Program-made: the position numbers and the translations under genes
The notes under the pieces: generated by a model
The model's input: the letters and a program-made list of their open reading frames with translations, nothing else
Database searches by the model: none
What the model was told of the DNA's origin: nothing
Shown: piece by piece, positions 21,523 through 58,834 of the stretch
How positions within the stretch are numbered: the stretch's first letter is position 1
How the letters are laid out: every line of letters begins with the position of its first letter
Assembly (NCBI RefSeq): GCF_001660705.2
Contig: NZ_LYBV02000007.1
Span: 124,001 to 188,000 of the forward strand
Direction of reading: 5' to 3'
DNA from: Saccharicrinis aurantiacus
GTDB lineage: Bacteria > Bacteroidota > Bacteroidia > Bacteroidales > Marinilabiliaceae
Length of the DNA stretch: 64,000 nt

Positions 21523-24318
21523 ATGAAGAAGCTTGTGTTTTTAGCTGTTATATTAATGCTAAGTGCAATAAATACCTTTGCCATAAAAAGCATTACAACA
21601 GACTATACCATTACAAAAGTAAGAATTGCCAACAGTGGCAATAAAGAGTTTATTGTAGCCAGTGCTTACGATGGGCAAGTACTTGCCTACGATTATAAAG
21701 GCAAAATGCTATGGGAAAATGAGCTTTCGGGTTATATGAATCACGAGCTTTGGGCCGAAGATATTACAGGCGATGGTAAAGATGAAGTTTTTGCCGCTAA
21801 TGCCGATGGAAACTTGTATTGTTTAGATGCCAAAGGAAAGGTATTGTGGCAATTTAAAAACTCAGAAACACCTATGTACGCCATTGCAGTGGTGCATAAA
21901 GAGGGTACACCTTATGTGGTTTGTGGAGATTATTCAAATTCTATTTTCTATTTAGATGTTAAAGGGAAAAAAATAAAGGAAGTTAAGTCATCAACATACT
22001 CAAAAGAGAAAACCTTTGGCGATGTTACTGAAATTAAGATGCCGCCAAAAAACACGCATATTGCAAACTTTTTACGCAAGGTTAAATTGGCCGATGGTTC
22101 AGAGAAATTGGCTGTTTTAGGTACCAACAACAGTATGCAAACTACAGGTAGCTTGTATATGTTCGATGTATTGGCAGATAAACCCTACAGTACAAAAAAG
22201 ATAAAGTCAAAAAAAGCTCAAGGTTACATGGAGCCATATGATGTTAGCGGAGATGGAAATCAAGAGTTGATATTGGGTCCTTCTAGTATGATTCAAGATG
22301 CCGGTTATACAGTTTATAATACGGTTGATAACACGCAAAAATACTTCAACTTTAAACCTTTACATAAGCAATTCGATCGTTTTGGCTACCGTGTGGTTCA
22401 AACAGCAGCAGTTAAGTTAGGTGGAGAAACTAAGTTTTTATCACTTTTTGGAACACGCATCATTCTTATGGATACAAACATGAAACCTGGCAGTGCAGAG
22501 GTACTATCTAGTAAATGTTCGTATAACGATATGTGGTATAATGCCAATAGCAATCAATTAGTATTGGCTAGTGCGCAGAGTGGTGGTAATGGAATTCACA
22601 TTATCGATTTAAACTCAAAGTCATGGAAGAATGAATACAAGAAACTTGTTCCAGCCGGTAATGTACAAGCTATGCTTGATAATCATGCAACGGCGCGTAA
22701 GCAATTAAGTAAATATAAAAAGCCAAGTAGTGAACGTGATCCACTACCCGTTTACATGCTATCTGATAGTAAATTTGATGGAGCAGAAAAAATAGTGGCT
22801 GATATCAAGAAAAATTATGAATCACCCATCTTTTTAAATTATTACTTTTCGCCATTTGCTCAAGATCCTAAGGATTGGAATCGCGAGCAATTAGGGAATG
22901 CCAAATATGTTGAGAAACGCGATAAGCGCAAAAAGTACACAAAAACACAAGAAGAACTGGTTTCACAGATTACTAAAAAATATGATGGAATGCCAGGTAT
23001 TGCTATGTGGGGAGGGCACGGAAACGATCCTTACTTCTATAGTTTAGAAACGCTAAAGGAGATTATTGATGCTGCCCATGGTAAAAAGACAGTGTTTATT
23101 TTCCCTGAGTTAGAGAAGCACGATGAGGATTTTAAATGGGTATTAAATAACCATATCTATCCGCTTGCTGAGTATGCACAAGGTAGAAATACAAATATTT
23201 ATATCAGAACAAAGCACACTTTTTGGCAGGGACCGGCATATATGCCACAATGGAACAGAATGCTATCTGGTGAGTTTGCCGATGTATTTGTACCAAGTAT
23301 GGAAGAAACCACCGATAAAAGTATGGAGCTGAGCGTTGCAGCGCGTATGGGATATTGGATGAGTGGTGCTGTTGACTCTTGGGGAGCTCGTTGTGCGCGT
23401 GATAATACTAGTTTTGATCGTATGCGTCAGCACTCACATCAAGATATTCCCAACCACTTCCTGCGTCAGATGGTATATAATGTGGCCAGCGGATCTCGTT
23501 ACCTGAACAATTTTGTAGTTGATCAAGAATATATGAGTTTGTTTTGGGAACTAATCGCCAAAGGTGTTTTATATGTACCTGAGCGTAACGAATTATTGAG
23601 TTTATCGCCAGTACATTTAGGTATGTTACCGCCCGATGAACATATGCTTGAAGAAGGACATAATGTAAAATGGCTTACCTTTTACGATGAAAAAAAGGAG
23701 AAAGCCAATCCAATGGTGTTTAGTCATCTGAATGGATCATGGCCCGGAGCTCCTGTTACAGAGTGGGATTTCTCTAACTATGCAGCAGGGGTTAAAGATC
23801 GCCGATTAAACTTTTTACCAAACTACAAAAATGGTATGGTATTAATGACGCCGGTGCAAGAAGGTAAGTTTGCCATGAAAGATGCAAAACGCGAAGCTTT
23901 AGTAAATCAGTTACACCCAATTTATAAGAATATTACCAAGGAGTACATTACCGATGGTGCCAAATATTATTCTGCCGATGGTTCTAAGACTTATTCTGCC
24001 AACGAATATTATAAAGTTATTCAGAAGGATATTGAAGAGGGTGCACAAAAATTACCGTTAACAGTTGAAGGTGATGTAGCATGGGTAGTTGCTCAAACAG
24101 GTCCTAAAAACTTGCGATTAACGATAATTGATGGTGGTTATATAAACCCTAAGGATAGAGAAGCAAAAATCACTTTTAATACAGTAAAGCCAGTTAAAAT
24201 GGTTGATTTGTTAGATGGAAAATCTTTTAAAGTTTCTAATCCGAGCAATGTAACTGTAGATGTTCCATGCGGGTTATTTCGTTTTATTGATATCGAATTA
24301 AGTGAAGAATTAAAATAA
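21523..24318 (+). CDS. PQQ-like propeller plus hydrolase, GH150 lambda-carrageenase-like
   Basis: This 931-residue exported protein has two parts. Residues about 25-380 are PQQ-like propeller blades (VASAYDGQVLAYDYKGKMLW, ANADGNLYCLDAKGKVLWQF). After a linker near 400, a second region (about 410-700) has barrel-like conserved blocks: WGGHGNDPYFY, FPELE (E529) and ADVFVPSMEET (E594/E595). A C-terminal beta domain ends in IPCGLFRFIDIELSE-like sequence. Propeller plus separate catalytic part and a length of about 940 match, from memory, the lambda-carrageenase CglA that founded GH150. Two further paralogues lie at 33511 and 55967. The conserved glutamates are candidate catalytic residues by comparison of the three. 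Endo-cleavage of a sulfated galactan is inferred. No T9SS tail is present. Confidence 0.68.
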   Translation: MKKLVFLAVILMLSAINTFAIKSITTDYTITKVRIANSGNKEFIVASAYDGQVLAYDYKGKMLWENELSGYMNHELWAEDITGDGKDEVFAANADGNLYCLDAKGKVLWQFKNSETPMYAIAVVHKEGTPYVVCGDYSNSIFYLDVKGKKIKEVKSSTYSKEKTFGDVTEIKMPPKNTHIANFLRKVKLADGSEKLAVLGTNNSMQTTGSLYMFDVLADKPYSTKKIKSKKAQGYMEPYDVSGDGNQELILGPSSMIQDAGYTVYNTVDNTQKYFNFKPLHKQFDRFGYRVVQTAAVKLGGETKFLSLFGTRIILMDTNMKPGSAEVLSSKCSYNDMWYNANSNQLVLASAQSGGNGIHIIDLNSKSWKNEYKKLVPAGNVQAMLDNHATARKQLSKYKKPSSERDPLPVYMLSDSKFDGAEKIVADIKKNYESPIFLNYYFSPFAQDPKDWNREQLGNAKYVEKRDKRKKYTKTQEELVSQITKKYDGMPGIAMWGGHGNDPYFYSLETLKEIIDAAHGKKTVFIFPELEKHDEDFKWVLNNHIYPLAEYAQGRNTNIYIRTKHTFWQGPAYMPQWNRMLSGEFADVFVPSMEETTDKSMELSVAARMGYWMSGAVDSWGARCARDNTSFDRMRQHSHQDIPNHFLRQMVYNVASGSRYLNNFVVDQEYMSLFWELIAKGVLYVPERNELLSLSPVHLGMLPPDEHMLEEGHNVKWLTFYDEKKEKANPMVFSHLNGSWPGAPVTEWDFSNYAAGVKDRRLNFLPNYKNGMVLMTPVQEGKFAMKDAKREALVNQLHPIYKNITKEYITDGAKYYSADGSKTYSANEYYKVIQKDIEEGAQKLPLTVEGDVAWVVAQTGPKNLRLTIIDGGYINPKDREAKITFNTVKPVKMVDLLDGKSFKVSNPSNVTVDVPCGLFRFIDIELSEELK

Positions 24319-24349
24319 CAATTTGTAATAAATCCCTAATAAATATGCG

Positions 24350-24388
24350 AATGCGCAATGTCTTTTTTTAGGCATTGCGCATTTTTTA
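24350..24388 (+). terminator. rho-independent terminator
   Basis: The stem AATGCGCAATG/CATTGCGCATT has a 12-base loop and is followed by T-rich sequence, about 30 bases after the propeller-hydrolase gene. Confidence 0.9.
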
Positions 24389-24559
24389 TTGCATTCGTAA
24401 AGCCTTCTGAATTTCAATTATATTAGGCTAATAAGCTAGTTTTAACCTCCACTCGAACAGTAAAGAACATTAATTGTACCCTTGTGTACTCCTTGGTTTT
24501 CTGAATCACTTACCTTAGCCTTAGTGAAAATCCAATTATTGATAAACAATATAAACAGC

Positions 24560-26083
24560 ATGAAGTGTACATTTTTAAGAGTAGCCATTGTGTTACTCGT
24601 AAGCAGTTTTTCATTTGCATCGAGCACAGCTCAAAACCGTAAACCCAATATCCTATGGATTATTGCCGAAGATTTAAATCCGAATATGGGTTGCTATGGC
24701 GATACCATTAACATTGGTCATACACCTGTTATCGACAAGATGGCAAGTGATGGTGTATTGTTTAAAAGAGCCTACGCAACGGCACCAGTTTGTTCTGCTA
24801 GCCGTTCTGCATTTATTACGGGTAAATATTCAACAACCATAGGTACACACGAGCATCGTTCAAGCAGATATACTGATGGTGAAATTGTGCCAGAAGAATT
24901 AAGAATTCATTTGCCAGATTATATCACTACTGTACCTGAGTTAATGCGCGAAGCGGGTTACTTTACTTTTAATGGTGGAAAAGACGATTACAATTTTGAC
25001 TACGACCGCCGTGCTTTATACACAGTTGGCACTAAGCCCGATTACAAGCATCATATGAATGGCTGGCAAGGAAATCACCCTGAGCATTTTTTATCGTGGA
25101 CAGAAGATGTATGGTCGGCACGTAAGGACAAAGACCAACCTTGGTTCGGACAAGTTCAGATTATGGGAGGTAAAAAAGATTACAAATATGTACGCGATGG
25201 CGAGCGTTTAGCTCCTAATGCGGTTCCTCTTCCTCCGTATTACCCAAATATTCCATCTCAGCAAAAACCATGGACAGATCATTATAATGCATCACGTGGA
25301 TCTGATGCCAGAATAGAATTGATTTTAAATCAGCTTGAGGCTGATGGCGAATTAGAAAATACAATTGTATTCTTCTTTTCTGATCATGGTAGTCCAACAT
25401 CATTGCGTCATAAGCAGTTTTGTTACGAAGGCGGTTTACACGTGCCTCTAATGGTATTTGGTAACCATCCTTCAATTAAAGCAGGAACAGTTATCGACGA
25501 TATGGTTACTTTAATTGATGTTTCGGCAACCACTCTTGGTTTAGCAGGACTAGAAGTGCCAAAATATTTCGATGGACAGGATGTATTTGCCAAAGATTAC
25601 AAAGCTGCTAAGGAAGTATTTGGAGCACGCGACCGTTGCGATTTTACCATCGATAGAATTAGAACCGTACGTACTGAAAAATACCGTTATATCCGTAACC
25701 TAAAAAATGAGCGCACCATGATGCAACCTAGCTATCGCGATGGAAAATCTATTGTTGAAGGATTGAGAGCAGAGCATGAAGCGGGCCGTTTAACACAATA
25801 CCAAGAGCAACATTGGTTTCATGAAAGACCAGTAGAAGAATTATATGATATTGCAGCTGATCCTAATCAAATGGATAATTTGGCATTAAATCCAGAATAT
25901 CAAAGTGTACTTAAAAAGCATCGTAAAATGATGGATAAATGGATTAAATCTACCGACGATAAAGGTCAGTATCCTGAAGATCCAAATCAACTAAAAGCTA
26001 CTTACGAACTTTGGAAAGATCGTAAACAATTTAAAGGTGCCGATGTAAACGAAGAGTACCACCAATTTATGGGCGAGGACTAA
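24560..26083 (+). CDS. S1-type sulfatase
   Basis: This sulfatase has about 507 residues from the ATG at 24560, which begins a good signal peptide (MKCTFLRVAIVLLVSSFSF). The upstream in-frame ATG at 24482 adds 26 non-signal residues and is not preferred. The metal site is ILWIIAEDLNPNMGCYG, and formylglycine C78 lies in VCSASRSAFITGKY. A later metal or substrate site is FFFSDHGSP...HKQFCYEGG. It is exported without lipobox or T9SS tail and so is periplasmic. It lies between the GH150-like gene and a GH2 gene, an order repeated at 56-64 kb. It probably removes sulfate from galactose units before GH2 action; the position is unknown. Confidence 0.92.
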   Translation: MKCTFLRVAIVLLVSSFSFASSTAQNRKPNILWIIAEDLNPNMGCYGDTINIGHTPVIDKMASDGVLFKRAYATAPVCSASRSAFITGKYSTTIGTHEHRSSRYTDGEIVPEELRIHLPDYITTVPELMREAGYFTFNGGKDDYNFDYDRRALYTVGTKPDYKHHMNGWQGNHPEHFLSWTEDVWSARKDKDQPWFGQVQIMGGKKDYKYVRDGERLAPNAVPLPPYYPNIPSQQKPWTDHYNASRGSDARIELILNQLEADGELENTIVFFFSDHGSPTSLRHKQFCYEGGLHVPLMVFGNHPSIKAGTVIDDMVTLIDVSATTLGLAGLEVPKYFDGQDVFAKDYKAAKEVFGARDRCDFTIDRIRTVRTEKYRYIRNLKNERTMMQPSYRDGKSIVEGLRAEHEAGRLTQYQEQHWFHERPVEELYDIAADPNQMDNLALNPEYQSVLKKHRKMMDKWIKSTDDKGQYPEDPNQLKATYELWKDRKQFKGADVNEEYHQFMGED

Positions 26084-26175
26084 TCAAATTGTGCGCCTCA
26101 TTTAATTGGCCTCTTTTTAAAAGAGATTTTTACAAATAAGAAAGGTTTTTAAAAAGCAGCCTTGAATTTCTTTGC

Positions 26176-26207
26176 TTTCGTTTCTTGTTTCAAGACAAGA
26201 AATGAAA
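26176..26207. repeat. short palindromic hairpin in GH2 leader
   Basis: TTTCGTTTCTTGT pairs with ACAAGAAATGAAA over 13 positions (one G-T) around the 6-base loop TTCAAG. A GGGCGAAGCGCC-like small palindrome follows at once. The block resembles short hairpin repeats scattered through Bacteroidota genomes. It lies about 70 bases before the chosen start of the GH2 gene. Confidence 0.6.
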
Positions 26208-26275
26208 TCGGGTTTGGGCGAAGCGCCAATAAACCAGGCTATTATTCAATGGAATACAGATTACAATCATACAAA

Positions 26276-28726
26276 ATGAAAAAATTAATATTATCACTTA
26301 TCGCTATTACGCTTGTACTATCTAGTGCATCAGCTCGCGATATTAAAAAATTTAATGCCAATTGGAAGTTTGCACGCTTTGGTGCAATGCCTGATGGATC
26401 AGTAAAGGCAGAACCCAAAAATATGGATGAAGCCGATTACGACGATTCTGATTGGCGTCAATTAAACCTGCCGCACGATTGGGGTATTGAAGGGCCTTTC
26501 CGTTACGATTTACCTAACCGTACAGGTAAATTACCTTGGGCTGGGATTGGTTGGTACCGTAAATCATTTATGGTGGATGCCGCAGCAGCTGATAAACGAA
26601 CGTTTATTGAGTTCGACGGCTCTATGTCTGGAACCCAAGTATGGGTTAATGGCGGATATGTTGGCGAGTGGCCTTATGGTTATTCTTCTTTTCAATTGGA
26701 GCTTACACATTACCTAAAACCAGGCGAAGAAAATACCATTGCTGTTCGTTTGGATAATAAGGAAGAATCATCGCGTTGGTATCCTGGTGGTGGAATCTAC
26801 CGTAACGTAAAATTAATTACAACTGAGAAAACTTATATCGAGCATTGGGGTGTATTTGTTACTACTCCAGAAGTAAATGCTGCCAATGCAACAGTTAATA
26901 TTAAAACAGAAGTAAACGGAAAAGGTAATAATTTACAATTGGCTTACGAGGTTTTTGATGGTGACAATAAAGTGGCCAGTGCAAAAGTAAAAGCAGATAG
27001 CGATTGTAACATTACATTGGCAAATCCTACTTTATGGGATTTAGATAATCCGCATTTATATACTTTAAAAACCACTCTTTTAGAGGATGGAAAAGTAATT
27101 GACAATAACGAAAGTACTTTTGGTGTTAGAACCATCAAATATACCAAAGATGGTTTCTTTTTAAACGGAAAGAAAACTAAGATGAATGGTGTTTGTCAGC
27201 ACCACGATTTAGGACCATTGGGAGCTGCTATTAATGTGCGAGCCATGGAGCGCCAAATTGAAATTTTAAAAGAATTTGGAACCAATGCCATTCGTACAGC
27301 ACATAACCCACCGGCACCAGAGTTTTTAGATTTGTGTGATAGAATGGGTGTAATGGTGCAAGTTGAGGCCTTTGATGTATGGCAAAAGAAGAAAGCAGAT
27401 AACGATTATGCGCATCTTTTTGGAGCTTGGCACGAGCGTGATTTACGCAATATGGTACGCCGCGATCGTAATCACCCTTGTGTGGTGATGTGGAGTACAG
27501 GTAACGAAATGATTGAACTTCAAAAAATACAAGATGCACCATTAGCATTGCATTTGCGTGATATTGTTTTATCAGAAGATGATACACGCCCAACTAGTTT
27601 TGGTTTAAGCCGTCCTGAAGCGCTTTTCAGCGGATGGGCTAAAATGGCCGATGTGGTTGGTATAAATTACAAACCACATGCATATGCTGAGTTAAGAGAG
27701 AAGTATCCTGACTTACCTATATATGCAAGTGAAACTACATCGAGCATTAGCTCGCGTGGCGAATATTTCTTCCCTGTTTCAGATGTTCAACGCGAGGGTG
27801 TAGGCGGTCAGTTTCATGTAAGTGATTATGGATTATATGCATCGCCAAACGGCTATCCTGCCGATAAAGAGTTTCAAGCACAAGATGAGCACGATTTTAT
27901 AATTGGTGAGTTTGTTTGGACTGGCTTTGATTATATTGGAGAGCCAACTCCATTTAATAAAGATAAAACCAACCTTTTAAATTATGCCGATCCAAAGGAG
28001 CGTGCACGTGTTAAAGAGGAAATGAAGAAGTTGGGGAACAAAATTCCTCCACGTAGTTCCTATTTTGGTATTGTTGATTTGTGTGGATTCCCAAAGGACA
28101 GATACTATTTGTACCAAGCCAAATGGCGTCCAGAATTACCGATGGCGCATATTTTACCACATTGGAATTGGGAAGGTCGCGAAGGCGAAGTAACACCTGT
28201 TTTTGTGTATACCTCTGGCGATGAGGCCGAGTTATTCTTAAACGGAAAATCATTAGGTCGTAAAAAGAAAGCGCAGTATGAGTACCGTATGCGTTGGAAT
28301 GATGTTACCTATCAACCTGGTGAGTTAAAAGTGGTTTCATATAAAAATGGAAAAGAGTGGGCTACAGATGTAGTTAAAACTACGGGAGTAGCTGCTAAAA
28401 TTGCATTAGAGGCTGACAGAGCTACCATTGATGCCGATGGTGAAGATGTATCATTTATTACCGTTAAAGTCTGCGATAAAAAAGGATTAATGGTTCCAAA
28501 AACACATAATAATATTAAGTTTTCTATTAGCGGACCTGCTGAGATATTAGCTGTAGGTAATGGCGACCCAACAAGTTTTGAGCCTTATCAAGCTTCAGAG
28601 CGAAAAGTTTTTAATGGTATGGCTTTGGTAATTGTTCGTTCTAAAAAAGGCGAAATGGGTAAAGTAAAACTTACTGCTGAATCTGAAGGTTTAAAAGCGA
28701 CTTCGATATCGTTAAAAACAGAATAA
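26276..28726 (+). CDS. GH2 beta-galactosidase-like enzyme
   Basis: This protein has about 816 residues from the ATG at 26276, which opens a signal peptide (MKKLILSLIAITLVLSSASA). The in-frame extension upstream to 26162 runs through a palindrome and is rejected. The jelly-roll starts NLPHDWGIEGPF and is followed by the immunoglobulin-like domain and TIM barrel. The acid/base is E411 in STGNEM and the nucleophile is probably E486 in YASETTSS. A DUF4982-like domain (FVYTSGDEAELFLNGKSLG) and a final Ig-like domain (about 710-816) follow. GH2 enzymes in agar/carrageenan loci remove terminal beta-galactose in the periplasm. It follows the sulfatase and probably acts after it. Confidence 0.9.
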   Translation: MKKLILSLIAITLVLSSASARDIKKFNANWKFARFGAMPDGSVKAEPKNMDEADYDDSDWRQLNLPHDWGIEGPFRYDLPNRTGKLPWAGIGWYRKSFMVDAAAADKRTFIEFDGSMSGTQVWVNGGYVGEWPYGYSSFQLELTHYLKPGEENTIAVRLDNKEESSRWYPGGGIYRNVKLITTEKTYIEHWGVFVTTPEVNAANATVNIKTEVNGKGNNLQLAYEVFDGDNKVASAKVKADSDCNITLANPTLWDLDNPHLYTLKTTLLEDGKVIDNNESTFGVRTIKYTKDGFFLNGKKTKMNGVCQHHDLGPLGAAINVRAMERQIEILKEFGTNAIRTAHNPPAPEFLDLCDRMGVMVQVEAFDVWQKKKADNDYAHLFGAWHERDLRNMVRRDRNHPCVVMWSTGNEMIELQKIQDAPLALHLRDIVLSEDDTRPTSFGLSRPEALFSGWAKMADVVGINYKPHAYAELREKYPDLPIYASETTSSISSRGEYFFPVSDVQREGVGGQFHVSDYGLYASPNGYPADKEFQAQDEHDFIIGEFVWTGFDYIGEPTPFNKDKTNLLNYADPKERARVKEEMKKLGNKIPPRSSYFGIVDLCGFPKDRYYLYQAKWRPELPMAHILPHWNWEGREGEVTPVFVYTSGDEAELFLNGKSLGRKKKAQYEYRMRWNDVTYQPGELKVVSYKNGKEWATDVVKTTGVAAKIALEADRATIDADGEDVSFITVKVCDKKGLMVPKTHNNIKFSISGPAEILAVGNGDPTSFEPYQASERKVFNGMALVIVRSKKGEMGKVKLTAESEGLKATSISLKTE

Positions 28727-30500: not shown

Positions 30501-30523
30501 AAAAACAAAGTAATTAAAATCGA

Positions 30524-30551: not shown

Positions 30552-30720
30552 TTTTCAACATAAGACAAGGCTATGTACTTTTCAGTTTAATAATTTATGA
30601 GCATTTAATTTAAACTGACGAAAACAAACCTCAGAGTAATTGTATTGATATTGTATTCGAAATCATAACACTATATGAATGTGTGAGCTATATAGAAAGC
30701 TTACACCTAAATTTATTTAT

Positions 30721-32181
30721 ATGAAATTTAATACAATAGTATTTGTAGCTCTTACCTTGTTGGGAGGTAATGCTTACGCAAAAAAGAAGCAAGAAAAACC
30801 CAACCTAATAGTTATTCATACCGATGAACATAGCTTCAGAACATTAAGTTGTTACCAAGAGCTAATGCCCGAAGATCAAGCCTTTGTTTGGGGTAAGGGA
30901 AATAACTCAAAAACACCAAACATTGATAGAATTGCGCACGAAGGAGCTATTGCAATGAACTACTATGCATCATCGCCAGTTTGTACCCCTTCTCGTGCAT
31001 CAATGGTAACTGGCCTTTATCCACAATCAACAGGAGCACCAAAAAATGGGATGAGTATTCGTGAGGATATTCCAACATTTGCTACCATCCTGCAAGATCA
31101 AGGTTATGCAACTTCGTATGTAGGGAAATGGCATTTAGCTGGCCATAAGAAATATGCTTTTGATATTAAGTACAAAGCGGGCTTTGCCGATAATCGTTAT
31201 ATGATGACTGGTGGGCATGCGCCTTATTTTAGAATTACCAATGGTGAAATTAAAGCTTTAGGTCAGCGCGAAGGCGAAAAAGCAATTAAAGACGGTGCTG
31301 ATAATATTGAATATGTAACAGATTTCTTTACCGATAGAACATTAGAAATTTTAGAGCGCGATAAGGATAAACCTTTTGCTTTGATGCTTTCTATTCCAGA
31401 TCCACATACACCAGATGCTGCTCGCGAACCATACAAAAGCATGTATAAAGATATGCCCGTAGAAGCACCTTTTACTATGGCTCCTGAATATGTATCGCAA
31501 AAGCCAAGCTGGGGAAAAAGCACTAATAAAGATGATAAAAATGAGGCCAAAGAATTCGATAAACGTTCCCTTCGAGAATACTTCGGGATGGTAAGTTGTA
31601 TTGATGATAATGTAGGGCGCATTTTAAAGTTTTTAGATGATAATGACCTTACAGATAATACCATTATAGTATTTACAGCTGACCATGGCGATATGTTCTT
31701 TGAGCACAACAGAAAGAATAAAGGTGTGCCTTATGAGGCTTCCGCTCGTATCCCTTATGTAATGCGATATCCAAAAGCTATTCCTGCCGGAAAGATTATT
31801 CGTAAAGCTTATACTAATGTTGATTTTACTCCTACCGTATTAGGTTTAATGGGTGCAGAAAATAAAGTTTTCTTTGAGGGTATTGATGCATCTACTGATT
31901 TTACTAGCAAAACTAAAGAGGTTGAGGATGATAGAATCACCTACTTTGCCAAAAATGGCGGATGGTGGGTTTGTGCGGTTAACAATCGCTACAAATTGGT
32001 TATTGATAAAAAAGAGAAACCTTGGTTAATTGATCTTGAGAAAGATCCTTTTGAGACCAAAAATTTTTATAACAATCCTGAATACAAAGAAATTGCAACT
32101 AAAATGCAAAAAGAGTTGTTTGTTCAGCTAGAGCAATACAAAGAACCTGGCTTAAAAACACAACCATACAAAATTAAATAG
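30721..32181 (+). CDS. S1-type sulfatase (DEH subgroup)
   Basis: This sulfatase has about 486 residues from the ATG at 30721, which opens the signal peptide (MKFNTIVFVALTLLGGNAYA). The frame extends upstream to 30679, but those residues are not signal-like. The metal site is unusual in reading VIHTDEHSFRTLSCY. Formylglycine C88 lies in VCTPSRASMVTGLY, and FTADHGDMFFEHNRKNKG supplies the second site. It is strikingly like the sulfatase at 60885: both carry the same QAxVWGKG insert, PDPHTPD and RKAYTNxDFxPT. It is periplasmic. It follows a terminator, so it has its own promoter, and it is convergent with the GT14-like gene. The target sulfate is unknown. Confidence 0.92.
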   Translation: MKFNTIVFVALTLLGGNAYAKKKQEKPNLIVIHTDEHSFRTLSCYQELMPEDQAFVWGKGNNSKTPNIDRIAHEGAIAMNYYASSPVCTPSRASMVTGLYPQSTGAPKNGMSIREDIPTFATILQDQGYATSYVGKWHLAGHKKYAFDIKYKAGFADNRYMMTGGHAPYFRITNGEIKALGQREGEKAIKDGADNIEYVTDFFTDRTLEILERDKDKPFALMLSIPDPHTPDAAREPYKSMYKDMPVEAPFTMAPEYVSQKPSWGKSTNKDDKNEAKEFDKRSLREYFGMVSCIDDNVGRILKFLDDNDLTDNTIIVFTADHGDMFFEHNRKNKGVPYEASARIPYVMRYPKAIPAGKIIRKAYTNVDFTPTVLGLMGAENKVFFEGIDASTDFTSKTKEVEDDRITYFAKNGGWWVCAVNNRYKLVIDKKEKPWLIDLEKDPFETKNFYNNPEYKEIATKMQKELFVQLEQYKEPGLKTQPYKIK

Positions 32182-33510: not shown

Positions 33511-36147
33511 ATGAGAAAAATTTTCACAATAGTAATTGCGCTATTTTCATTAGTAGTTAGTGCAAAAAGCTTTGTTACTGATGGTAATGGTATTAGAAAT
33601 ACGGTTACGGCTACGGTAAAAGGTAAATCAGTTTTATACATATCTGAACTTGATGGGGCAATAGCTGCCTATAGCATTGATGGAAAGAAGATATGGGAGG
33701 TAGCTACTGATAAAAAGGCCCTCGTGTTTAAATTGAAGGCTTCAGATATCAATGGCGATGGAAATGACGATTTATTAGTCGCTTCAGCCGATGGTAATAT
33801 TTACTGTTGGAGTAGTAAAGGGCAGTTATTATGGAAATATAGTCCTAAATCTCCCGTGAGTTTTACAGAAGTTGCTGTAGTTAAGAATAATGGCAAATCC
33901 CAAGTATTTGCTGGAGGTAACGATTCTAAACTTTACGAGCTCGATACAGAAGGGAAAGAAGTAAGTACAACTAAAATAAATGGTGTATTTCGTTTAATGG
34001 ACTCGGGGAACTTTTTATCAGCTGATAGGGAAGACCTGTTCGTAATGACCTATGGACACGATAAATACCGTTGGGAAGTTTTCGGAATTATTGATACTGA
34101 AACCAAAGCGTTTAAAAAACAATTGCCAAAAAATAAGAAGCTCAAAATGCTATCTAAAATGATGATCACTGATTTTGAGGTAGCTGATATTACCAAAGAT
34201 GGATTAGATGATCTTTTGTTCTACGGTACTAATACAGCAGGCGTGTTTATTGGTTTAGATGGCCAAATTAATCAGGTAGCCGAGTATATTGGTAAAAACA
34301 AAGAGAAACAGCGTTATGCACATTCACAGGGTGCTTGCTTATTGCCAGTGCGTGATGAAATTGCTTTTCAGCATGGTGGTTTTATGCACCGTTTAAGTTT
34401 AAAAGGTGAAGATTTAGAAGTAACAGGATCGCGTTATGGCGAAATTATATTTAATCAATTAGCCTTTGATGCGGCATCAAAACAATTATTTGCTGGTGGT
34501 CAAGTAGGAGGTGGAAATAAAATGTACACTTATCCTGTTAACAAAGCATCGTGGTTAACAACTCCTCAAACAAAAGAAGGAAGAATGATAGAGGTGCAAA
34601 AAAATATTGAAAAGCTTTATCAGCAAGCTTTAAAGTTTACACCACCATCATACCAAACTAAATCAGAAAAAGAATGGGTGATGATAACTCCGTTTCAGCC
34701 GGAAGCTAAGGTGATGAAGAAAAAGGGAGGTGATCTTAAATTAGTAGTTCAAGAAAGTTGGAAAGAAAATACTTCGCGTGAAGAATTAGTTGCTGCCATT
34801 GGTAAGGATGCTTTAAAGAAGGACAAGCGTGGTAAGTATAATTTATCAAGAGCTGAGATTATTAAAATGGCTAAGGCCTACGAATCAAAGGGCGAGCCAT
34901 TTACCATATGGGCAGGTCATGTAACCGATCCATTTTATTTACATATCGAAACCTTAGAAGAAATTTTAAGAGTAGCTCCTAATACTTGTTATGGTTTTGT
35001 TTATGCTGAGATGCACGATCCTAATGATCCACGTGTGGTTCACTTTGTAAACGAATATATGCCACGTTTGGCCACAGCACTTCGTAAAAACGGTAAAGCA
35101 AAATTATATTTCCGATATAAAAACATGTTCTGGGGAGCTAGTTCGCACCAGGGAATTTGGAAAGATATGTTTTACAGCGGAAAGTATGCCGATATCTTAG
35201 TTCCGGCAGCCGAGGATACATCATCACGTACACAGGATGTAAATTTTTCCGGTCGTGTGGGAATGCTAATGGGTGGTTTTGTTGATGATTATGCCATGCG
35301 TTTGGTCGATGATAATCCAACCAGTTGGAGACCATATACACCAGGAGGTCAGCGTTCAGTTTCGCCATATTTACGTAATGGTATTATGATGGCAGCTTAT
35401 GGTGGTCATTACGGAATCATCTTCAATAATAGTTATTTAGAAGATCCAGGTTTAAATTCTTTATTTGCATTGATGACATCGGGAGCAATTCCTTTAGTTG
35501 AGAAGGAAGATATTGAATCGGTAAGCTCTTGGATGTTAATAAAGGATGTTAATGCAGATCTAATTCACTCAGTAGATGATCATCATAACATGAAGCAGTT
35601 TAAAACGGATGATACCAATGCTGTAATTGCGAATAGCCAAATGCATTGGGCAGGAAGTACAATTAATGATTACGATTATTCTAAAGCATTAGGCTCGGAT
35701 TATCGTTGGATGAATTATATGCCTGAAATGCCAAACGGAATGATACCTGTTGGTCCGGTTGAAATGGAAAAAGATTTGAAAGGTGCAGGTATTCCATATT
35801 TTGTTACAGACCTTAAGACTGGTTTTATCGATGGAGAAGACGTTGGTGCAAAAGAGTTTGGTAAAACAATTTCTTCCGAAGTAAGTAAAGGAGCTGCTCA
35901 AATGCGCATCAATGTAAAAGGAGCTTCGTGGTGTGCCATTAGAATTGATGAAACACATATTCGTGTTATTATGGTAGATCAAGGGTATATTAATCCTCAA
36001 GATCGTGAAGTTGCCATTACATTTAATGGCTCGAAGCCTAGTAAGGCTGTTGATATCTTAAGTAAAGAAAATATTAAAGTAAGTGATGCGATAAAAACAA
36101 TTGTTCCTGCGGGTTCTGCCAAATTCATCGACTTTACTTTTGAATAA
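33511..36147 (+). CDS. PQQ-like propeller plus hydrolase, GH150-like (divergent copy)
   Basis: This 878-residue exported protein (signal peptide to about VSAKS) is the most divergent of three paralogues. Propeller blades (SELDGAIAAYSIDGKKIWEV, ASADGNIYCWSSKGQLLWKY) fill about 20-360. The catalytic-like region keeps the pattern WAGHVTDPFYLH, VYAEMHD (E500), and YADILVPAAEDT (E568), matching E529 and E594 of the 931-residue copy. The C-terminal block GYINPQDREVAITFN is also shared. Replacement of EET by EDT, and of WPEI/FPEL by YAEM, suggests a changed subsite or specificity. It starts about 290 bases from the divergent GT14-like gene and is convergent with the 1032-residue T9SS protein. Function by analogy to lambda-carrageenase is inferred. 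Confidence 0.62.
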   Translation: MRKIFTIVIALFSLVVSAKSFVTDGNGIRNTVTATVKGKSVLYISELDGAIAAYSIDGKKIWEVATDKKALVFKLKASDINGDGNDDLLVASADGNIYCWSSKGQLLWKYSPKSPVSFTEVAVVKNNGKSQVFAGGNDSKLYELDTEGKEVSTTKINGVFRLMDSGNFLSADREDLFVMTYGHDKYRWEVFGIIDTETKAFKKQLPKNKKLKMLSKMMITDFEVADITKDGLDDLLFYGTNTAGVFIGLDGQINQVAEYIGKNKEKQRYAHSQGACLLPVRDEIAFQHGGFMHRLSLKGEDLEVTGSRYGEIIFNQLAFDAASKQLFAGGQVGGGNKMYTYPVNKASWLTTPQTKEGRMIEVQKNIEKLYQQALKFTPPSYQTKSEKEWVMITPFQPEAKVMKKKGGDLKLVVQESWKENTSREELVAAIGKDALKKDKRGKYNLSRAEIIKMAKAYESKGEPFTIWAGHVTDPFYLHIETLEEILRVAPNTCYGFVYAEMHDPNDPRVVHFVNEYMPRLATALRKNGKAKLYFRYKNMFWGASSHQGIWKDMFYSGKYADILVPAAEDTSSRTQDVNFSGRVGMLMGGFVDDYAMRLVDDNPTSWRPYTPGGQRSVSPYLRNGIMMAAYGGHYGIIFNNSYLEDPGLNSLFALMTSGAIPLVEKEDIESVSSWMLIKDVNADLIHSVDDHHNMKQFKTDDTNAVIANSQMHWAGSTINDYDYSKALGSDYRWMNYMPEMPNGMIPVGPVEMEKDLKGAGIPYFVTDLKTGFIDGEDVGAKEFGKTISSEVSKGAAQMRINVKGASWCAIRIDETHIRVIMVDQGYINPQDREVAITFNGSKPSKAVDILSKENIKVSDAIKTIVPAGSAKFIDFTFE

Positions 36148-51859: not shown

Positions 51860-51890
51860 GGGTAATAACGGATAGGATTTAAATATAAGA

Positions 51891-51920
51891 TGGGCGAATT
51901 CAACTGTATTCGCCCATTTA
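51891..51920. terminator. bidirectional terminator
   Basis: TGGGCGAAT pairs with ATTCGCCCA around an 8-base loop, between the propeller lipoprotein and the convergent nrdB gene. Confidence 0.9.
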
Positions 51921-51941
51921 TTGTTTTATCTAATTCAGATA

Positions 51942-53054
51942 TTAAATATCAAAATCTGTATCTGTAACATCCATATTTATGCCGCCAACTACATACGAGC
52001 TAATCTCAGTTTCCTGAGGTAAAACTTCAACTTCATCATTGCGCAACCAATGATTCATCCACGATAAAGGGTTGGATGTTTCGTTATATATAGGCTTTAA
52101 ACCTATTCCCTTTAAACGTTTGTCGGTTAGGTATTTCATGTATTTACCCAATAGTTTAGCATTCAACCCTATTATAGAACCCTTCTCAAATAAATACTCT
52201 GCCCAGCGCATTTCTTGCTCCGTTGCATCACGATAAAGGGCATATACTTCATTGTCGAGCTCATTAATAATATCGGCAAAGCCTTCATTTTTGTTTTGGC
52301 GTAAATCACGAATCATTTTCTGTGTTATGGCTAAGTGCTCATTTTCATCGCGTGCAATGAATTTAATAATCTTAGCATTTCCTTCCATTTTTTTATTCTC
52401 GGCAAAGGCAAAAGAACAAGCAAACGAAACGTAAAAACGAACCCCTTCAAGGATATTAACAGATACCAAAGCCAGGTAGAGCTTCTTTTTTAATTCCTTC
52501 AACGAAATGGTTTCTTTACCTTTCATACCTAATTGTTGGGCCTGATATTTAATTAGGTAATGGTAAAAACTATTGTATTGGTCGGTTACTGATCCTGCGC
52601 GTTCCACAATCATGTTGTTACTCATAATATCGTCAAAAATCTTTTCAGAATCGGCATATACATTTTTAATAATGTACGAGTAACTCATAGAGTGTATGGT
52701 CTCAAAAAAATCCCATATAATAATGGCTTCTTCTACTTCAGGCAATGTTACCACTTGTCCGAAGGTTAAGAACGGAGAACGTCCCTGTACACTATCGAGC
52801 AAAATCTGGTATTTAAGGTTTTCTGTAAATATAAATTTCTCTTGTTCAGTGAGGGTATTAAAATCGTTGATATCTTTTATTAATGAAATCTCTTCAGGAC
52901 GCCAGAAAAAACTTAACATTCGTTGCGATAAGTGTTCGTAAAACGGATATTTCTGAATGTCGTACCGTTGTACATTCTTGCCTTCACCAAAGAACATTTT
53001 TTCGTTTAAAAAATCAATTTTCTTATCACTATATAAACTTGGTATTTGTGTCAT
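51942..53054 (-). CDS. nrdB: class I ribonucleotide reductase, beta subunit
   Basis: This is the 370-residue NrdB/R2 protein, which holds the di-iron tyrosyl-radical cofactor that starts nucleotide reduction in NrdA. Iron ligands and radical are all in place: D87 in LLDSVQGRSP, E118 and H121 in FFETIHSMSY, radical Y125 in the same motif, and the second E-x-x-H in ARDENEHLAITQ. The start at 53054 (MTQIPSLYSD) lies 19 bases after the nrdA stop. A longer frame adds 17 residues overlapping nrdA and is not preferred. It is co-transcribed with nrdA, so it falls under the same cobalamin riboswitch. It is cytoplasmic and unrelated to the glycan genes. Confidence 0.97.
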   Translation of the reverse strand: MTQIPSLYSDKKIDFLNEKMFFGEGKNVQRYDIQKYPFYEHLSQRMLSFFWRPEEISLIKDINDFNTLTEQEKFIFTENLKYQILLDSVQGRSPFLTFGQVVTLPEVEEAIIIWDFFETIHSMSYSYIIKNVYADSEKIFDDIMSNNMIVERAGSVTDQYNSFYHYLIKYQAQQLGMKGKETISLKELKKKLYLALVSVNILEGVRFYVSFACSFAFAENKKMEGNAKIIKFIARDENEHLAITQKMIRDLRQNKNEGFADIINELDNEVYALYRDATEQEMRWAEYLFEKGSIIGLNAKLLGKYMKYLTDKRLKGIGLKPIYNETSNPLSWMNHWLRNDEVEVLPQETEISSYVVGGINMDVTDTDFDI

Positions 53055-53073
53055 TGTAATAATTTTTAAAGGG

Positions 53074-55389
53074 TTAAACAGAACATGACCCACCTTCACA
53101 TGCATCTAATTCTAAGGCTAGTTCTTTATTGATATGCTTTTCGTTTGAAGTGTTCTCTTTTTGCGCAAGTTCTTGCGATGCTTCGCCCGAATTATCATTA
53201 CTATTTAAGTAGTAAAGTGTTTTTAATCCATACTTATAAGCACTCCCCTCGTGCTTAATTAAATCACGAATAGGCACCTTGTTGTTATCGTATTTAGCAA
53301 TGTCGTAATACAAATTAGTACTAATACTTTGGTCGATAAACTTTTGAAAAATGGCAACAAACTTTACATATTCTTCATTGTCAATATCCCATGCCAATGG
53401 ATAGTTTTCTTTATATTTTTCGAAACCAGGTACCAATTGTTTTAAAGGGCCATATTTGCTCATTTTAGTAATAAGTAATTTGCGAACAGGGTCAATTCCT
53501 GCAGTTGAGTTTGATACAATAGAACTTGAAGCTGCTGGTGGTATTGCGCTTAATGCAGAGTTGCGTATACCATATTGCTTTACCAATTCTCTCAGTTCTT
53601 CCCAATTGCAATGCAGGGTATTGGGGCATATTTCATCAACTGTTTTAGCGTAGGTATCAATGGGGAAAATATTATCGGCATACTTTGTTCTTGTGTAATA
53701 TTTACAGGCTCCTTTCTCTTTAGCTAAATGCGCAGATGCTTTTATCAGTCCATATTGAAATCTTTCCATATGGGTATGCATAAGTTTTTTGCCTTCGGTT
53801 GAATTAAATTGCACCTTATTTTTCGCTAAAAAATGAAATACATCAGATACACCAATCCCCAAACTACGCCTATTTTTTGTTGATTTTTCAGATGCTTTAA
53901 CCGGATATTCTTGGTAATCGATTAATTCATCAAGAAAACGAACCAATAAATCAGTAAGTTCATCAAGCTCATTAATATCATTTACTTTGCCTAGGTTTAT
54001 ATTACTTAAAATGCACATGGCAATTTCGCCATCACTTTTATTAATATCAGTGAGTGGGGTAGTTGGTAATGTGATTTCCTGACAAAGATTACTCATGTAA
54101 ATATTATCTTTAAATGAGCTGTGTGTATTTACATGATCGGCATTTAATATGTAAATCCGCCCAGTTTCGTAACGCTCTTTAAGTAAAGCCATATAAAACT
54201 CACGTGCACTTATTTGCTTTTTTCTAACCGTATAATCTTTCTCGTATTTTAAATAAAGTTCCTCAAACCCATTGTAGTCTGAACTGTAAAAAGCATGGTA
54301 TAGGTTTCGGGTTTCCTCGCTCGAAAAAAGGGTAATATTCTGATTGTGCTTAACCCTATCTCTAAAAAGTTTATTTAATGCAATGGAGTAATCCATGCGG
54401 CGAACCCTGTTTTCATCATTACCCTTATTATTCTTCAATTGAATAAAAGTCTCAACTTCCCAATGAAAAAATGGCATTGTTGAGGTGGATCCCCCGCCCC
54501 TAATCGAATTTTGCGTAAAACTTTTAGTAGATGCTTCAAACATTTTTAAAAAAGGAACCAAGCCAGTATGTATAACTTCTCCATTTCTAATGGTTGCATC
54601 TATCCCTCTTATTCTGCCAAAGTTTAAGCCAATACCGGCTCTTTGTGCTGTATAATATCCAACTGCAGTATTCGAATTCATAATGGACTCAATAGAGTCG
54701 TCAACATCAATAAGGCAGCAAGAACTAAACTGCCGAAGCGGTGTGCGAACTCCCGACATAATTGGGGTTGGTAGGCTTATTTTAAAGAGGGAGAGCGCAT
54801 TATAGAAGTTGATTACGTATTTCTTTCGTTGTTCAGGTTTGTAATCCATAAACATAAACATACCAATAAGCATAAAGGCTTCCTGTGGCGTTTCGTAAAG
54901 CTCACCCGATGCTCTATCTTGCAATAGGTATTTATCTACCATTTGGCTTAGGCCCGCAAAAGTAAAATTGTAATCTCGTTCATAATCTATGTACTTACTA
55001 AAATATACCAACTCCTGTGGCGTATACTTTTCCAGAAGAACATTATCGTAAATTCCTTTGTAAATATTATTACGTACCAAATATTCAAACGGAATAGGTT
55101 CAGCCTGCTTGTATACCTGCTTTCGCAAGTCCATTAATAATAGGCGCGCGGCTACATACTGGTAGTTAGGATTTTTTTCACTAACCAAATCGGCTGCCGA
55201 CCTGATCATTACCTTTTGAATTTCAGCACTTGTTATGCCTTCATAAAACTGAAGTTTTGAGTTAATCTCGATATCAGAAACCGAAACATTTTCGTACCCA
55301 TTGCAAGCCCATTCTACGGCTTCATGAATCATGGTTAAATCAATAGGAGAACGCGTTCCGTCGCGTTTTACTACATGTATTTGTTCCAT
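53074..55389 (-). CDS. nrdA: class I ribonucleotide reductase, alpha subunit
   Basis: This is the 771-residue NrdA/R1 catalytic subunit, which reduces ribonucleoside diphosphates. Residues 1-90 are an ATP-cone activity-control domain (IHVVKRDGTRSPIDLTMIHE). The catalytic cysteines lie in SSCCLIDVD, NLCQEITLP (with the thiyl-radical cysteine) and CILSNINLG. The swinging redox pair is at the end in CEGGSCSV. It leads the nrdA-nrdB operon. The leader (55390-55652) carries a promoter and a cobalamin riboswitch, so expression should fall when B12 is plentiful. That makes sense only if a B12-dependent class II reductase exists elsewhere in the genome. Confidence 0.97.
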   Translation of the reverse strand: MEQIHVVKRDGTRSPIDLTMIHEAVEWACNGYENVSVSDIEINSKLQFYEGITSAEIQKVMIRSAADLVSEKNPNYQYVAARLLLMDLRKQVYKQAEPIPFEYLVRNNIYKGIYDNVLLEKYTPQELVYFSKYIDYERDYNFTFAGLSQMVDKYLLQDRASGELYETPQEAFMLIGMFMFMDYKPEQRKKYVINFYNALSLFKISLPTPIMSGVRTPLRQFSSCCLIDVDDSIESIMNSNTAVGYYTAQRAGIGLNFGRIRGIDATIRNGEVIHTGLVPFLKMFEASTKSFTQNSIRGGGSTSTMPFFHWEVETFIQLKNNKGNDENRVRRMDYSIALNKLFRDRVKHNQNITLFSSEETRNLYHAFYSSDYNGFEELYLKYEKDYTVRKKQISAREFYMALLKERYETGRIYILNADHVNTHSSFKDNIYMSNLCQEITLPTTPLTDINKSDGEIAMCILSNINLGKVNDINELDELTDLLVRFLDELIDYQEYPVKASEKSTKNRRSLGIGVSDVFHFLAKNKVQFNSTEGKKLMHTHMERFQYGLIKASAHLAKEKGACKYYTRTKYADNIFPIDTYAKTVDEICPNTLHCNWEELRELVKQYGIRNSALSAIPPAASSSIVSNSTAGIDPVRKLLITKMSKYGPLKQLVPGFEKYKENYPLAWDIDNEEYVKFVAIFQKFIDQSISTNLYYDIAKYDNNKVPIRDLIKHEGSAYKYGLKTLYYLNSNDNSGEASQELAQKENTSNEKHINKELALELDACEGGSCSV

Positions 55390-55494
55390 TTGTTTATTAT
55401 TAAAAAATTAAACAATGGTAGCAAATAGGGTAAAATATAAGAAAGGCAGTACCTGCGGTTTTCCTAAGCTCTTTTTCCCGAAAGCTACGAATTA

Positions 55495-55644: not shown

Positions 55645-55672
55645 CAAATGTAAAAGTAGAATGTTTTTCCAA
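55645..55672 (-). promoter_or_regulatory. nrdAB promoter
   Basis: On the minus strand TTG (55670-55672) is followed after 17 bases by TACATTTG (55645-55652), which matches the Bacteroidota pattern TTG-N17/23-TANNTTTG. The transcript would begin almost exactly at the first base of riboswitch stem P1, which supports both calls. Confidence 0.75.
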
Positions 55673-55966
55673 TAAAGACTTCAAGGTCTTAAATAAAGTT
55701 ATTAAGAAGATATAAACAGGTTAAATGATTTGAAAATTGATAACACGTTTTTTTATGAGCATACTTATTGAAGTGTGTAAAATAATAATGTGGCACAGTA
55801 TTATAGTTGTATTCTTAGCTAAGTGTCACATAAACAGAGTTTATGGGTTTATGTGTTAATCAAATGTAATATTGTTTGTGTGCATAAAATAACGCTTAAG
55901 TACAAAGCCAAGTTTGGTTACAGGTAAATTTGAGCATTAATAATTGGCAATACTAAAACTCATAAT
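55673..55966. other. divergent intergenic region
   Basis: AT-rich sequence upstream of both nrdAB and the third GH150-like gene. TAAATTTG at 55925-55932 fits a -7 box for the plus-strand gene, but a TTG at the proper distance is not clear. Confidence 0.4.
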
Positions 55967-58834
55967 ATGAATAGATTTTATAAAATTATAATGCTACTTT
56001 TTTTTCAGGGAGCTATTCTCAGTTCTGCTCTATCTACCATTTCAGCATCAAAAACTGCAACTGCTCCTAAAATGAAAAGTGCTCTGCTAAGTTTTGATAC
56101 CGGCTTAACCATATCAAAAGTGGCTATGGCTAAAAATGGGAATACAGATGTAATTGTTACCTCAAGTTATAAGGGTATTATAACAGCACTTGATTACTCA
56201 GGTAAAATACTTTGGACAAATGATATTGGCAAAGGCATCATGAATTATGATATTTGGTGCGACGATATCACCGCTAATGGAAAAACTGAAATTCTCTTGG
56301 CTGCTGCCGATGGAAATGTACATTGTTTGAGTATAGATGGTACGCTACAATGGAGTTTTCATCCTACAGATATGCCTATGGTTTCGGTTTGTAGCATAAC
56401 AAAGAGTGATGGTTCAAAATATATTGCCTGCGGAGGTAACGATTTAAATTTGTATTACATCAATAGCAAGGGGGAGTTGCTAAATACGATCCCATCTAAC
56501 ACTTACCCAACGCCTCTTAAAATGACAAAAAAATGGCAAGGCGATGCCATTGTAATGCCCAATGCGCATAGTGTTAATTTTTTGCGCCCCCTGCCACAAG
56601 CTGACGGAACAGATGTTTTACTAATGAATGCCATTGTTGGTCATGCCGATCAAAAATCATTATGCTATTACTTTAAGCCAATGGCAGCAAAACCTCATAA
56701 AACATTTCAAATAGGTTATGGACACGGACCCATTGGAGATTTTAGGGTACGTAGAGCAAACGAAAATGCCGATTACGAAATATTAATAGGAACCTCAGGT
56801 ATTGGAAAAACTTTAAATTTCACACAGTATATACCTACACAGCATAAAAATAACAAGCAGCTTAAAACATTTAATATTGAGAAGGCTTTGGGCCGATCGT
56901 TTGGTTATAAGGTAGTGCAAACGGAGATGATAGAGAATGGGAATACCCATCAGTATTTTATAAAATGCGGAGCAGATATTTTTATCACAGATGCTGATAT
57001 GAATGAAAAAAGTGCCGAGCATATACAAAATACCTATTCTTATAACGATATGTGTTTAGATAAGGCTAACCAACGCATTATTTTGGCAAGTGCACAAAGT
57101 GGGGGTAGTTGTGTACATGTTATCGACCTTAAAAATAAAGCTTGGAAAAAGCAGTTTAAGAGTATTGCTCCTCCAGGAAAAATACAGCAAATTGTTGATA
57201 ACTCAGCTCATCTGAAAAAGCAACTCAACAAATTTAAAGCGCCTACTTGGGAGCGCGATCCTTTAAATGTTTATTTAATGTCGCCGCCAAAAGAGCCCAA
57301 AGCTGCTATTGATAACATAAAGAATAATTACAATAGTCCGGTTTTTATGGGCTACGCTTTTACCAAACAGGTGAGCACTTGGGATCGATCGGCATTAACG
57401 AATGAATCATTTAAAAACGCCCGTGATAGTCGTAAAAGTTACTCAATTTCGGCAACGCAGCTCGAGAATAAATTGATAAAAGGATACAACGAAAATGGTT
57501 TAACCACATGGGGAGGGCATGGTGTAGATCCTTTTTATTATGGTACCGAATCCATAAAAAGAGTAATTGATGCCGGTAATGGGAAAAAATCTATTTGGGT
57601 GTGGCCCGAAATTACCATCCTGTATAAAGACCAGTACGATTATGTAACTAAAAACCTTTTGTATCCGCTTGCCGAATACGGGCAGGAGAATAATGCAATG
57701 ATCTACCTACGTAGCAAGCATCTGTTTTGGCAGTCGATTATTTATAAGCCAGAGTGGAAAAGGTTTTTATCAGGCGAGTTTGCCGATGCCTTTTTACCCG
57801 GAATGGAAGAAACGCAGGATATGACCATGGAGCTCAGCTTGGCAAGTCGCTTGGGTTTATGGACTAGTGGTGTTTCTAATAGTTGGGTAACGCGTTGCGC
57901 ACGCGATAATCCTAGTTACCTAAGAACACGTCAGTTTTCAAACCAAAATCTGCCCAACCATTTTCTGCGAAATGCAGTTTATCATGCATCATATGGAGCC
58001 GAGTATGTAAACAACTTTGCACTAAAAGGAGAGGGTTCAGAGTATATGTCTATATTTTGGGAACTAATTGCCAAAGGAGCTATTTATGTTCCTAAGCGAT
58101 CAGAGATATTAAGCTTTTCGCCTGTTCACCTGAGTATCACAAATCCTGATAAAAGGTACATGAGTGAGGGAAATGGTTCAACAGCTCTCACTAGGTACGA
58201 TAAAGATTTTCACCCGTACAACCCTTATGTATTTACTAATTTAACGGGCGACTGGGCAGGAGCACGATTGAAAGAATACGATTTCTCACGATATGCTGCT
58301 GGAGTGGTCGATCATCGATTACATTTCTTAGCGCCTTACAATAATGGAATGGTGTTAATAACTCCGGTTCAGAATGGGGCTTTCGCCGATGAGGATGCAC
58401 CACGAGGGAAGATGGTGGATAATCTTCATCCTTTTTATAAGGATAAAATGGTAGAGTACGTTACCAACGGGCGTAATTATATTTCCGCGGATGGTAAAGA
58501 AACGCTTGCGGCTGACGAATACTATAAAAACGTTGAAAATAGTATTAAGGATGGTGCTAAAACATTGCCCATAATAGTTGAGGGAGAAGTTGCTTGGGTA
58601 GTAGCTCAAACTTCGCCTATGCATTTACGATTAACACTTATTGATGGCGGTTATATTAACCCTGACGACAGAAATGCCACAGTTACTTTTAATACTATTA
58701 CTCCAGTAAAAATTACCGATGTTGTAGATGGTAAAACCTATAAAGTAAATAAAGCAGGTAAAACGATTATTGATATCCCCTGTGGTTTATTCCGCTTTAT
58801 AGATGTTGAGCTCTCGGAGCCATTTATAGAGTAG
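55967..58834 (+). CDS. PQQ-like propeller plus hydrolase, GH150 lambda-carrageenase-like
   Basis: This 955-residue exported protein is the closest sister of the one at 21523. Signal peptide at 1-30. Propeller blades (TSSYKGIITALDYSGKILW, AAADGNVHCLSIDGTLQWSF) span about 45-400. The catalytic-like region holds WGGHGVDPFYYG, VWPEI (E548) and ADAFLPGMEET (E614/E615). The end VVAQTSPMHLRLTLIDGGYI and IPCGLFRFIDVELSE is almost the same as in the 931-residue copy. No T9SS tail. Architecture and length fit GH150 lambda-carrageenases as I remember them. It begins the second cassette of propeller-hydrolase, sulfatases and GH2 and is divergent from nrdAB. Confidence 0.68.
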   Translation: MNRFYKIIMLLFFQGAILSSALSTISASKTATAPKMKSALLSFDTGLTISKVAMAKNGNTDVIVTSSYKGIITALDYSGKILWTNDIGKGIMNYDIWCDDITANGKTEILLAAADGNVHCLSIDGTLQWSFHPTDMPMVSVCSITKSDGSKYIACGGNDLNLYYINSKGELLNTIPSNTYPTPLKMTKKWQGDAIVMPNAHSVNFLRPLPQADGTDVLLMNAIVGHADQKSLCYYFKPMAAKPHKTFQIGYGHGPIGDFRVRRANENADYEILIGTSGIGKTLNFTQYIPTQHKNNKQLKTFNIEKALGRSFGYKVVQTEMIENGNTHQYFIKCGADIFITDADMNEKSAEHIQNTYSYNDMCLDKANQRIILASAQSGGSCVHVIDLKNKAWKKQFKSIAPPGKIQQIVDNSAHLKKQLNKFKAPTWERDPLNVYLMSPPKEPKAAIDNIKNNYNSPVFMGYAFTKQVSTWDRSALTNESFKNARDSRKSYSISATQLENKLIKGYNENGLTTWGGHGVDPFYYGTESIKRVIDAGNGKKSIWVWPEITILYKDQYDYVTKNLLYPLAEYGQENNAMIYLRSKHLFWQSIIYKPEWKRFLSGEFADAFLPGMEETQDMTMELSLASRLGLWTSGVSNSWVTRCARDNPSYLRTRQFSNQNLPNHFLRNAVYHASYGAEYVNNFALKGEGSEYMSIFWELIAKGAIYVPKRSEILSFSPVHLSITNPDKRYMSEGNGSTALTRYDKDFHPYNPYVFTNLTGDWAGARLKEYDFSRYAAGVVDHRLHFLAPYNNGMVLITPVQNGAFADEDAPRGKMVDNLHPFYKDKMVEYVTNGRNYISADGKETLAADEYYKNVENSIKDGAKTLPIIVEGEVAWVVAQTSPMHLRLTLIDGGYINPDDRNATVTFNTITPVKITDVVDGKTYKVNKAGKTIIDIPCGLFRFIDVELSEPFIE

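Follow-up and report, generated by a model that had tools for sequence, protein, structure and literature searches.

GH150 lambda-carrageenases act with inversion of the anomeric configuration. The accessible part of a carrageenase review gives inversion for iota-carrageenases only. Among enzymes of the canonical type (GH150A), CglA of Pseudoalteromonas carrageenovora contains three CGLA domains, with five invariant acidic residues in the middle domain. A second type, GH150B, has been described from P. distincta U2A, and the available sections of that study (PMC12549532) report that GH150A and GH150B are active on lambda-carrageenan but not on kappa- or iota-carrageenan, and that tetrasaccharides lacking full sulfation occur among the products of GH150B, where the fully sulfated form is predominant (about 70%). 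According to the same sections, crystallization of GH150A and GH150B failed, and the conserved residues of the one deep cleft seen in AlphaFold models presumably include the catalytic machinery. The U2A genes are arranged in the order GH110A-GH110B-GH150B (EU511_08545, 08540 and 08535), and the P. distincta and P. carrageenovora loci are stated to be syntenic (PMC12549532, available sections). The P. carrageenovora B-type gene, whose annotation reads hypothetical protein, is accompanied by a pair of GH110 genes, a GH2 gene and sulfatase genes, a setting also described in the part of PMC6262041 at hand; the locus follows the U2A gene order, with its GH110 genes named from BLAST and PMC6262041. 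Its product, WP_104644241.1, is treated here as the counterpart of U2A GH150B on the basis of gene order and the published statement of synteny, rather than of the U2A sequence itself.

The stretch of DNA analysed here, referred to as the window, comprises 64,000 nucleotides of a contig of the marine bacterium Saccharicrinis aurantiacus and encodes three proteins, A (21523..24318, plus strand, 931 aa), B (33511..36147, plus strand, 878 aa) and C (55967..58834, plus strand, 955 aa), whose assignment to GH150 is supported by profiles, tree and genomic context. A and C are, with high probability, canonical GH150 endo-lambda-carrageenases, as indicated by Pfam matches and identity to CglA, and B is an enzyme of the GH150B type, as indicated by the CGLA models, identity and clade; the same high probability extends to the roles proposed below for neighbouring genes and for individual residues. 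By analogy with the described homologues, the three enzymes would cut beta-1,4 bonds of lambda-carrageenan, a highly sulfated polysaccharide of red seaweeds, to release even-numbered oligosaccharides, the canonical type yielding fully sulfated products and GH150B also incompletely sulfated ones, as printed for the homologues. The find is largely an ordinary one, a known enzyme family represented by two known types in a new host, because A and C look like the usual type and B like the recently described second type; its main interest lies in the candidate active-site residues and in a group of distant homologues.

The domain layout of A consists of a propeller (residues 43–361), a middle domain (residues 451–820) and a C-terminal domain (residues 847–925), which match PF25292, PF25290 and PF25291 with 430, 654 and 127 bits, respectively. 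The corresponding Pfam scores for the propeller, middle and C-terminal domains are 95, 170 and 63 bits in B and 350, 544 and 122 bits in C. All three CGLA models exceed their cut-offs in A, B and C, as they do in both P. carrageenovora proteins, and matches to the lambda-carrageenase middle-domain model CGLA_M lie far beyond chance (E-values of 1.4e-196 for A, 1.2e-49 for B and 3.2e-163 for C). The profile comparison thus bears out the GH150 likeness proposed in the preliminary description from the sequence alone, as well as the propeller and second conserved region said to be common to these three open reading frames, each of which carries the three CGLA domains. The general PQQ_2 model passes its cut-off in A only among the three. 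Identity to P. carrageenovora CglA, which comes from a different phylum than A and C, is 49% for A, 42% for C and 24% for B. No clear relative of the middle domain was found among solved structures, with either A alone or a 48-row profile as the query; the solved-structure matches of the GH150 profile fall in the propeller region, except for AsbF (E 0.4, profile positions 493–567). Neither a secretion tail (Pfam) nor a lipobox (by eye) was found in A, B or C, which are therefore likely to be periplasmic.

The genes surrounding A, B and C encode relatives of GH110A, S1_8B and GH2, which belong to the published lambda-carrageenan cascade. Directly downstream of A, in a setting that differs from CglA, are an S1_8B-like sulfatase (24482..26083, plus strand; PDB 9BBD S1_8B, 376 bits) and a GH2 beta-galactosidase (26162..28726, plus strand; Pfam, PDB 5T98 with 744 bits and 9BEY ‘GH2 beta-galactosidase’ with 681 bits). 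A GH110A-like alpha-1,3-galactosidase (9684..11495, plus strand) matches PDB 9BEH GH110A with 751 bits and is 55.5% identical to a P. carrageenovora GH110. Judging from homology, the S1_8B-like sulfatase, the GH110A-like enzyme and the GH2 enzyme would then trim the released oligosaccharides, starting at the non-reducing end. Further sulfatases are S1_30-like (30679..32181, plus strand; PDB 9IHK Sulfatase_S1_30A, 513 bits; and a second one at 60885..62318, plus strand, 443 bits to 9IHK), SGSH-like (8144..9601, plus strand; PDB 4MHX, 282 bits) and S1_16-like (58955..60541, minus strand; PDB 6UST, 386 bits, and 9FO1 ‘k-carrageenan sulfatase S1_16’, 374 bits); at strict thresholds, none of the five window sulfatases matched an S1_15 structure. 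Relatives with 65–67% identity to the sulfatase next to A stand beside B-type genes in three of seven loci (L037, L038 and L039), and relatives at 65–67% to the S1_30-like sulfatase encoded at 30679..32181 occur near B-type genes in five of the seven other loci (L037, L038, L040, L041 and L042). A hybrid two-component regulator with an AraC-type output is encoded at 969..5144 (plus strand; Pfam), and a 49% identical relative occurs close to the L058 B-type gene. SusC and SusD were not found among the 28 window proteins that were compared with Pfam.

The region, earlier described as an island, is not purely catabolic, because genes for the large and small chains of ribonucleotide reductase (51942–55389) lie within it. 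The window also encodes a GH86 porphyranase-like protein with a CBM6 and a secretion tail (42877–46200; the GH86 label is taken from porphyranase domain names), and two GH42-like proteins (14123–16405 and 18696–21272), with identities of 40% and 37% to a protein from P. carrageenovora that carries a family 42 annotation. Owing to these genes, other red-algal galactans may also be targeted, and the GH86-like protein suggests porphyran or agar as possible further targets of the region. In L038, a 58% identical relative of the first GH42-like protein is encoded in one gene run with GH110, sulfatases and a B-type gene. A GH2-like frame cut by the window end (62892–63998) is 38% identical to a P. 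carrageenovora GH2, and a 679-residue protein (49820–51859) is without a Pfam match at E 0.001.

Residue conservation was assessed in 73 proteins (57 canonical, 12 B-type and 4 distant) kept from 102 GH150 hits, of which 29 were left out as duplicates or short fragments. Two invariant acidic positions had been singled out beforehand, and both are aligned glutamates: E529/E548/E500 and E594/E614/E568, in the order A/C/B. Their codons, computed for A from the start of the frame, are at 23107..23109 and 23302..23304 in A, 57608..57610 and 57806..57808 in C and 35008..35010 and 35212..35214 in B, all on the plus strand. Two was an undercount, however: A, B and C share 15 identical acids, and within the middle domain D502, E529, E594, D627 and D749 (A numbering) are all five invariant in 69/69 canonical and B-type proteins, so that A, B and C all carry the acids conserved family-wide. 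H499, K564, R608 and R648 are likewise invariant in all 69. The four distant homologues all retain E594, D627, D749, H499, K564, R608 and R648; none retains D502, and position 529, in a weakly aligned stretch, is E in three and P in one.

Catalysis would take place in the middle domain and rely on a pair of carboxylates, most likely those of Glu529 and Glu594 or, alternatively, of Glu594 and one of Asp502, Asp627 and Asp749. The accessible parts of PMC12549532, PMC11202985, PMC13168452, PMC11748540, PMC6262041, PMC4919138 and PMC7939477 do not name a catalytic carboxylate for GH150. Docking of the canonical OUC-CglA of Maribacter vaceletii yielded a list of eight arginines, and a figure legend calls the pocket residues ‘catalytic’ (PMC11202985, available portion). 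An offset of 118 puts all eight on arginines in the M. vaceletii canonical protein encoded at L042:12682-15486, the next best offset placing only two; from these arginines and its size (934 aa, 106.1 kDa with the leader), this protein, which is 54.5% identical to A, is inferred to be OUC-CglA. Four of the docked arginines correspond to R469, R562, R623 and R633 of A, which are kept in 54–57 of the 57 canonical and in all 12 B-type proteins and would bind sulfates; the remaining four are variable. By sequence, the offset match puts E529, E594 and D627 in the neighbourhood of the published groove, a proximity along the chain rather than a measured distance.

The same residues allow a different assignment, possible though somewhat doubtful, in which E594 would pair with D627, D502 or D749 and E529 would be a structural or binding residue. 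D627 and D749, like E594, combine invariance in the 69 canonical and B-type proteins with retention in all four distant ones, where E529 is kept in three and its alignment is weak, and D627 lies in sequence between the docked groove arginines R623 and R633. E529 is nevertheless itself invariant in 69/69, and a crude propensity profile shows strand-like sequence just before it, as it does just before E594, a signal too weak to serve as fold evidence; D502, for its part, is lost in all four distant homologues, whose chemistry may differ. The ranking of the five invariant acids by their survival in distant homologues makes the question of the GH150 catalytic residues a testable one.

The B-type proteins form a single clade of 12 rows with a support of 100 in a quick tree, for which the program warns of long branches, and within it B and the second P. 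carrageenovora GH150 are sisters (support 98, 49% identity). Two columns mark the clade (A numbering): position 595 is E in 56 of 57 canonical proteins (Q in one) and D in 12/12 B-type proteins, and position 528 is P in 56 of 57 canonical proteins (A in one) and A in 12/12 B-type proteins. B, like WP_104644241.1, carries both A528 and D595. The EDT in place of EET noted earlier in the divergent copy is therefore present as described, with Glu568 of B as its first residue, and in the present alignment it is a mark of the clade and not a quirk of a single copy. The suggestion of a new subfamily holds as far as the separate clade is concerned; the subfamily is not new, because B falls in the clade of the published, already characterized GH150B. 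The related proposal that the divergent copy would serve differently sulfated stretches of the polymer agrees, by analogy, with the available account of GH150B (PMC12549532).

The B type differs from the canonical type in lacking several basic residues. R635 is present in 57/57 canonical proteins and is L or Y in 12/12 B-type proteins; H645 is present in 55/57 and is P in 12/12; and the docked R626, an arginine in 30/57 canonical proteins, is D in 12/12. Basic residues of the B type are conserved at other sites, for example R447, R508 and R519 of B. A smaller number of sulfate contacts near the groove would, hypothetically, be in keeping with B-type enzymes tolerating substrate that is less sulfated. 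These losses, together with the identity of about 22–25% between B and the canonical copies, could also mean that the substrate of B is not lambda-carrageenan but another polymer (a hybrid or less sulfated galactan, for instance), or that B is no longer active. This is improbable, given that B retains all five of the acids that are invariant in the middle domain, that lambda-carrageenan, unlike the kappa and iota forms, is a substrate of P. distincta GH150B (PMC12549532, accessible text), that the P. carrageenovora B-type gene lies in a lambda-type locus, and that genes of the B type stand beside canonical ones at L041, L042 and L058.

The three genes were previously regarded as a threefold set, a count that did not hold, since middle-domain matches reveal six GH150 copies in the S. 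aurantiacus genome. The fourth (L020) shares the contig with the window and lies approximately 11.6 kb upstream of it, and the fifth and sixth form a tandem pair on contig C36. A is 44% identical to C and 25% to B. In the tree all three are closer to proteins of other organisms than to one another: A shows 62% identity to a protein from a different Bacteroidales genome, the neighbours of C are a Verrucomicrobiota protein (50%) and the C36 pair, and B clusters with the second P. carrageenovora GH150. A recent local triplication giving rise to A, B and C, with later divergence in specificity, would accord with their location within about 37 kb but is extremely unlikely and was rejected on the tree and the identities, as each of them joins proteins of other organisms in the present tree and, judged by identity, the C36 pair (82%) is the only recent duplicate among the six copies. 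Contig C36 (L024 and L025) carries a second GH110 gene and SusC-like and SusD genes in addition to the two tandem canonical GH150 genes, one of which encodes a secretion tail, and looks like a second lambda-carrageenan locus; a 1,379-residue open reading frame lies upstream of its genes. Other genomes equal or exceed this copy number, with multiple GH150 matches in Wenyingzhuangia aestuarii (7; L051) and Pontiella sulfatireligans (11, including one weak and one below the cut-off; L046).

The GH150 family is rare in the class, in which an evenly drawn survey recorded it in 1 of 395 genomes, that of S. aurantiacus itself; up to four candidates were scored per genome (four of nine in the own genome), so weak copies may be missed. 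The 71 genomes of the window’s family include three with both types, two with the canonical type only and five with the distant group only. Seven of ten genomes picked by a canonical locus (L077, L055, L073, L044, L078, L051, L067, L045, L046 and L069) also hold a B-type copy, and all six picked by a B-type locus (L042, L037, L038, L039, L041 and L058) hold a canonical one. Altogether, a canonical copy is present in 16/16 checked genomes with a B-type copy, a figure that does not amount to a survey because most of the genomes were picked for a GH150 gene; B-type copies outside the tree were assigned by score (about 190–216 bits) and frame length. Canonical and B-type genes are immediate neighbours in L041 and in L042, the canonical gene of L042 being the putative OUC-CglA gene, and are separated by one open reading frame in L058. 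This pairing points to a common use, on lambda-carrageenan, of two endo-enzymes that differ in sulfation tolerance.

The four distant GH150-like proteins, 1,037–1,084 residues in length, are encoded at L027:8630-11743, L028:9688-12933 (minus strand), L029:8597-11851 and L030:8156-11398, with sulfatase-like genes around them, and a secretion tail is present in all three that were scanned (L027, L028 and L030). Profile comparison matched the canonical middle domain to that of the B type at 100% and to those of the distant proteins at 99.0% (L028 group) and 99.5% (L027); on this evidence the homology of the distant group to GH150 is real, because nine other window proteins gave 0.1–0.4%, the alignment in three of these nine controls being the protein itself without other homologues. 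A 96% match between the middle domain and the GH86 porphyranase-like protein of the window was rejected as an artefact, because a GH150 protein of L065, itself a phmmer match to the GH86 query, had entered the GH86 alignment; when the GH86 sequence was compared by itself, the value was 0.2%. The distant group is possibly a separate enzyme family. A tentative broader reading, a little short of evenly balanced, is that GH150 forms a larger superfamily, in which canonical and B-type enzymes would provide a paired endo-attack on one polymer in several phyla and a third group of about 1,040–1,090 residues, with a secretion tail, sulfatase genes nearby and the E594/H499/K564/R608 core in common with the other two, would act on another sulfated polymer. 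A whole-protein search for the distribution of the distant group, which matched 344 of 395 genomes, was set aside; among the matches listed, those outside the own genome, which has two, all fall in the C-terminal part (query from approximately 925), which is the secretion tail. Within the window’s family, the distant group occurs in 6 of 71 genomes.
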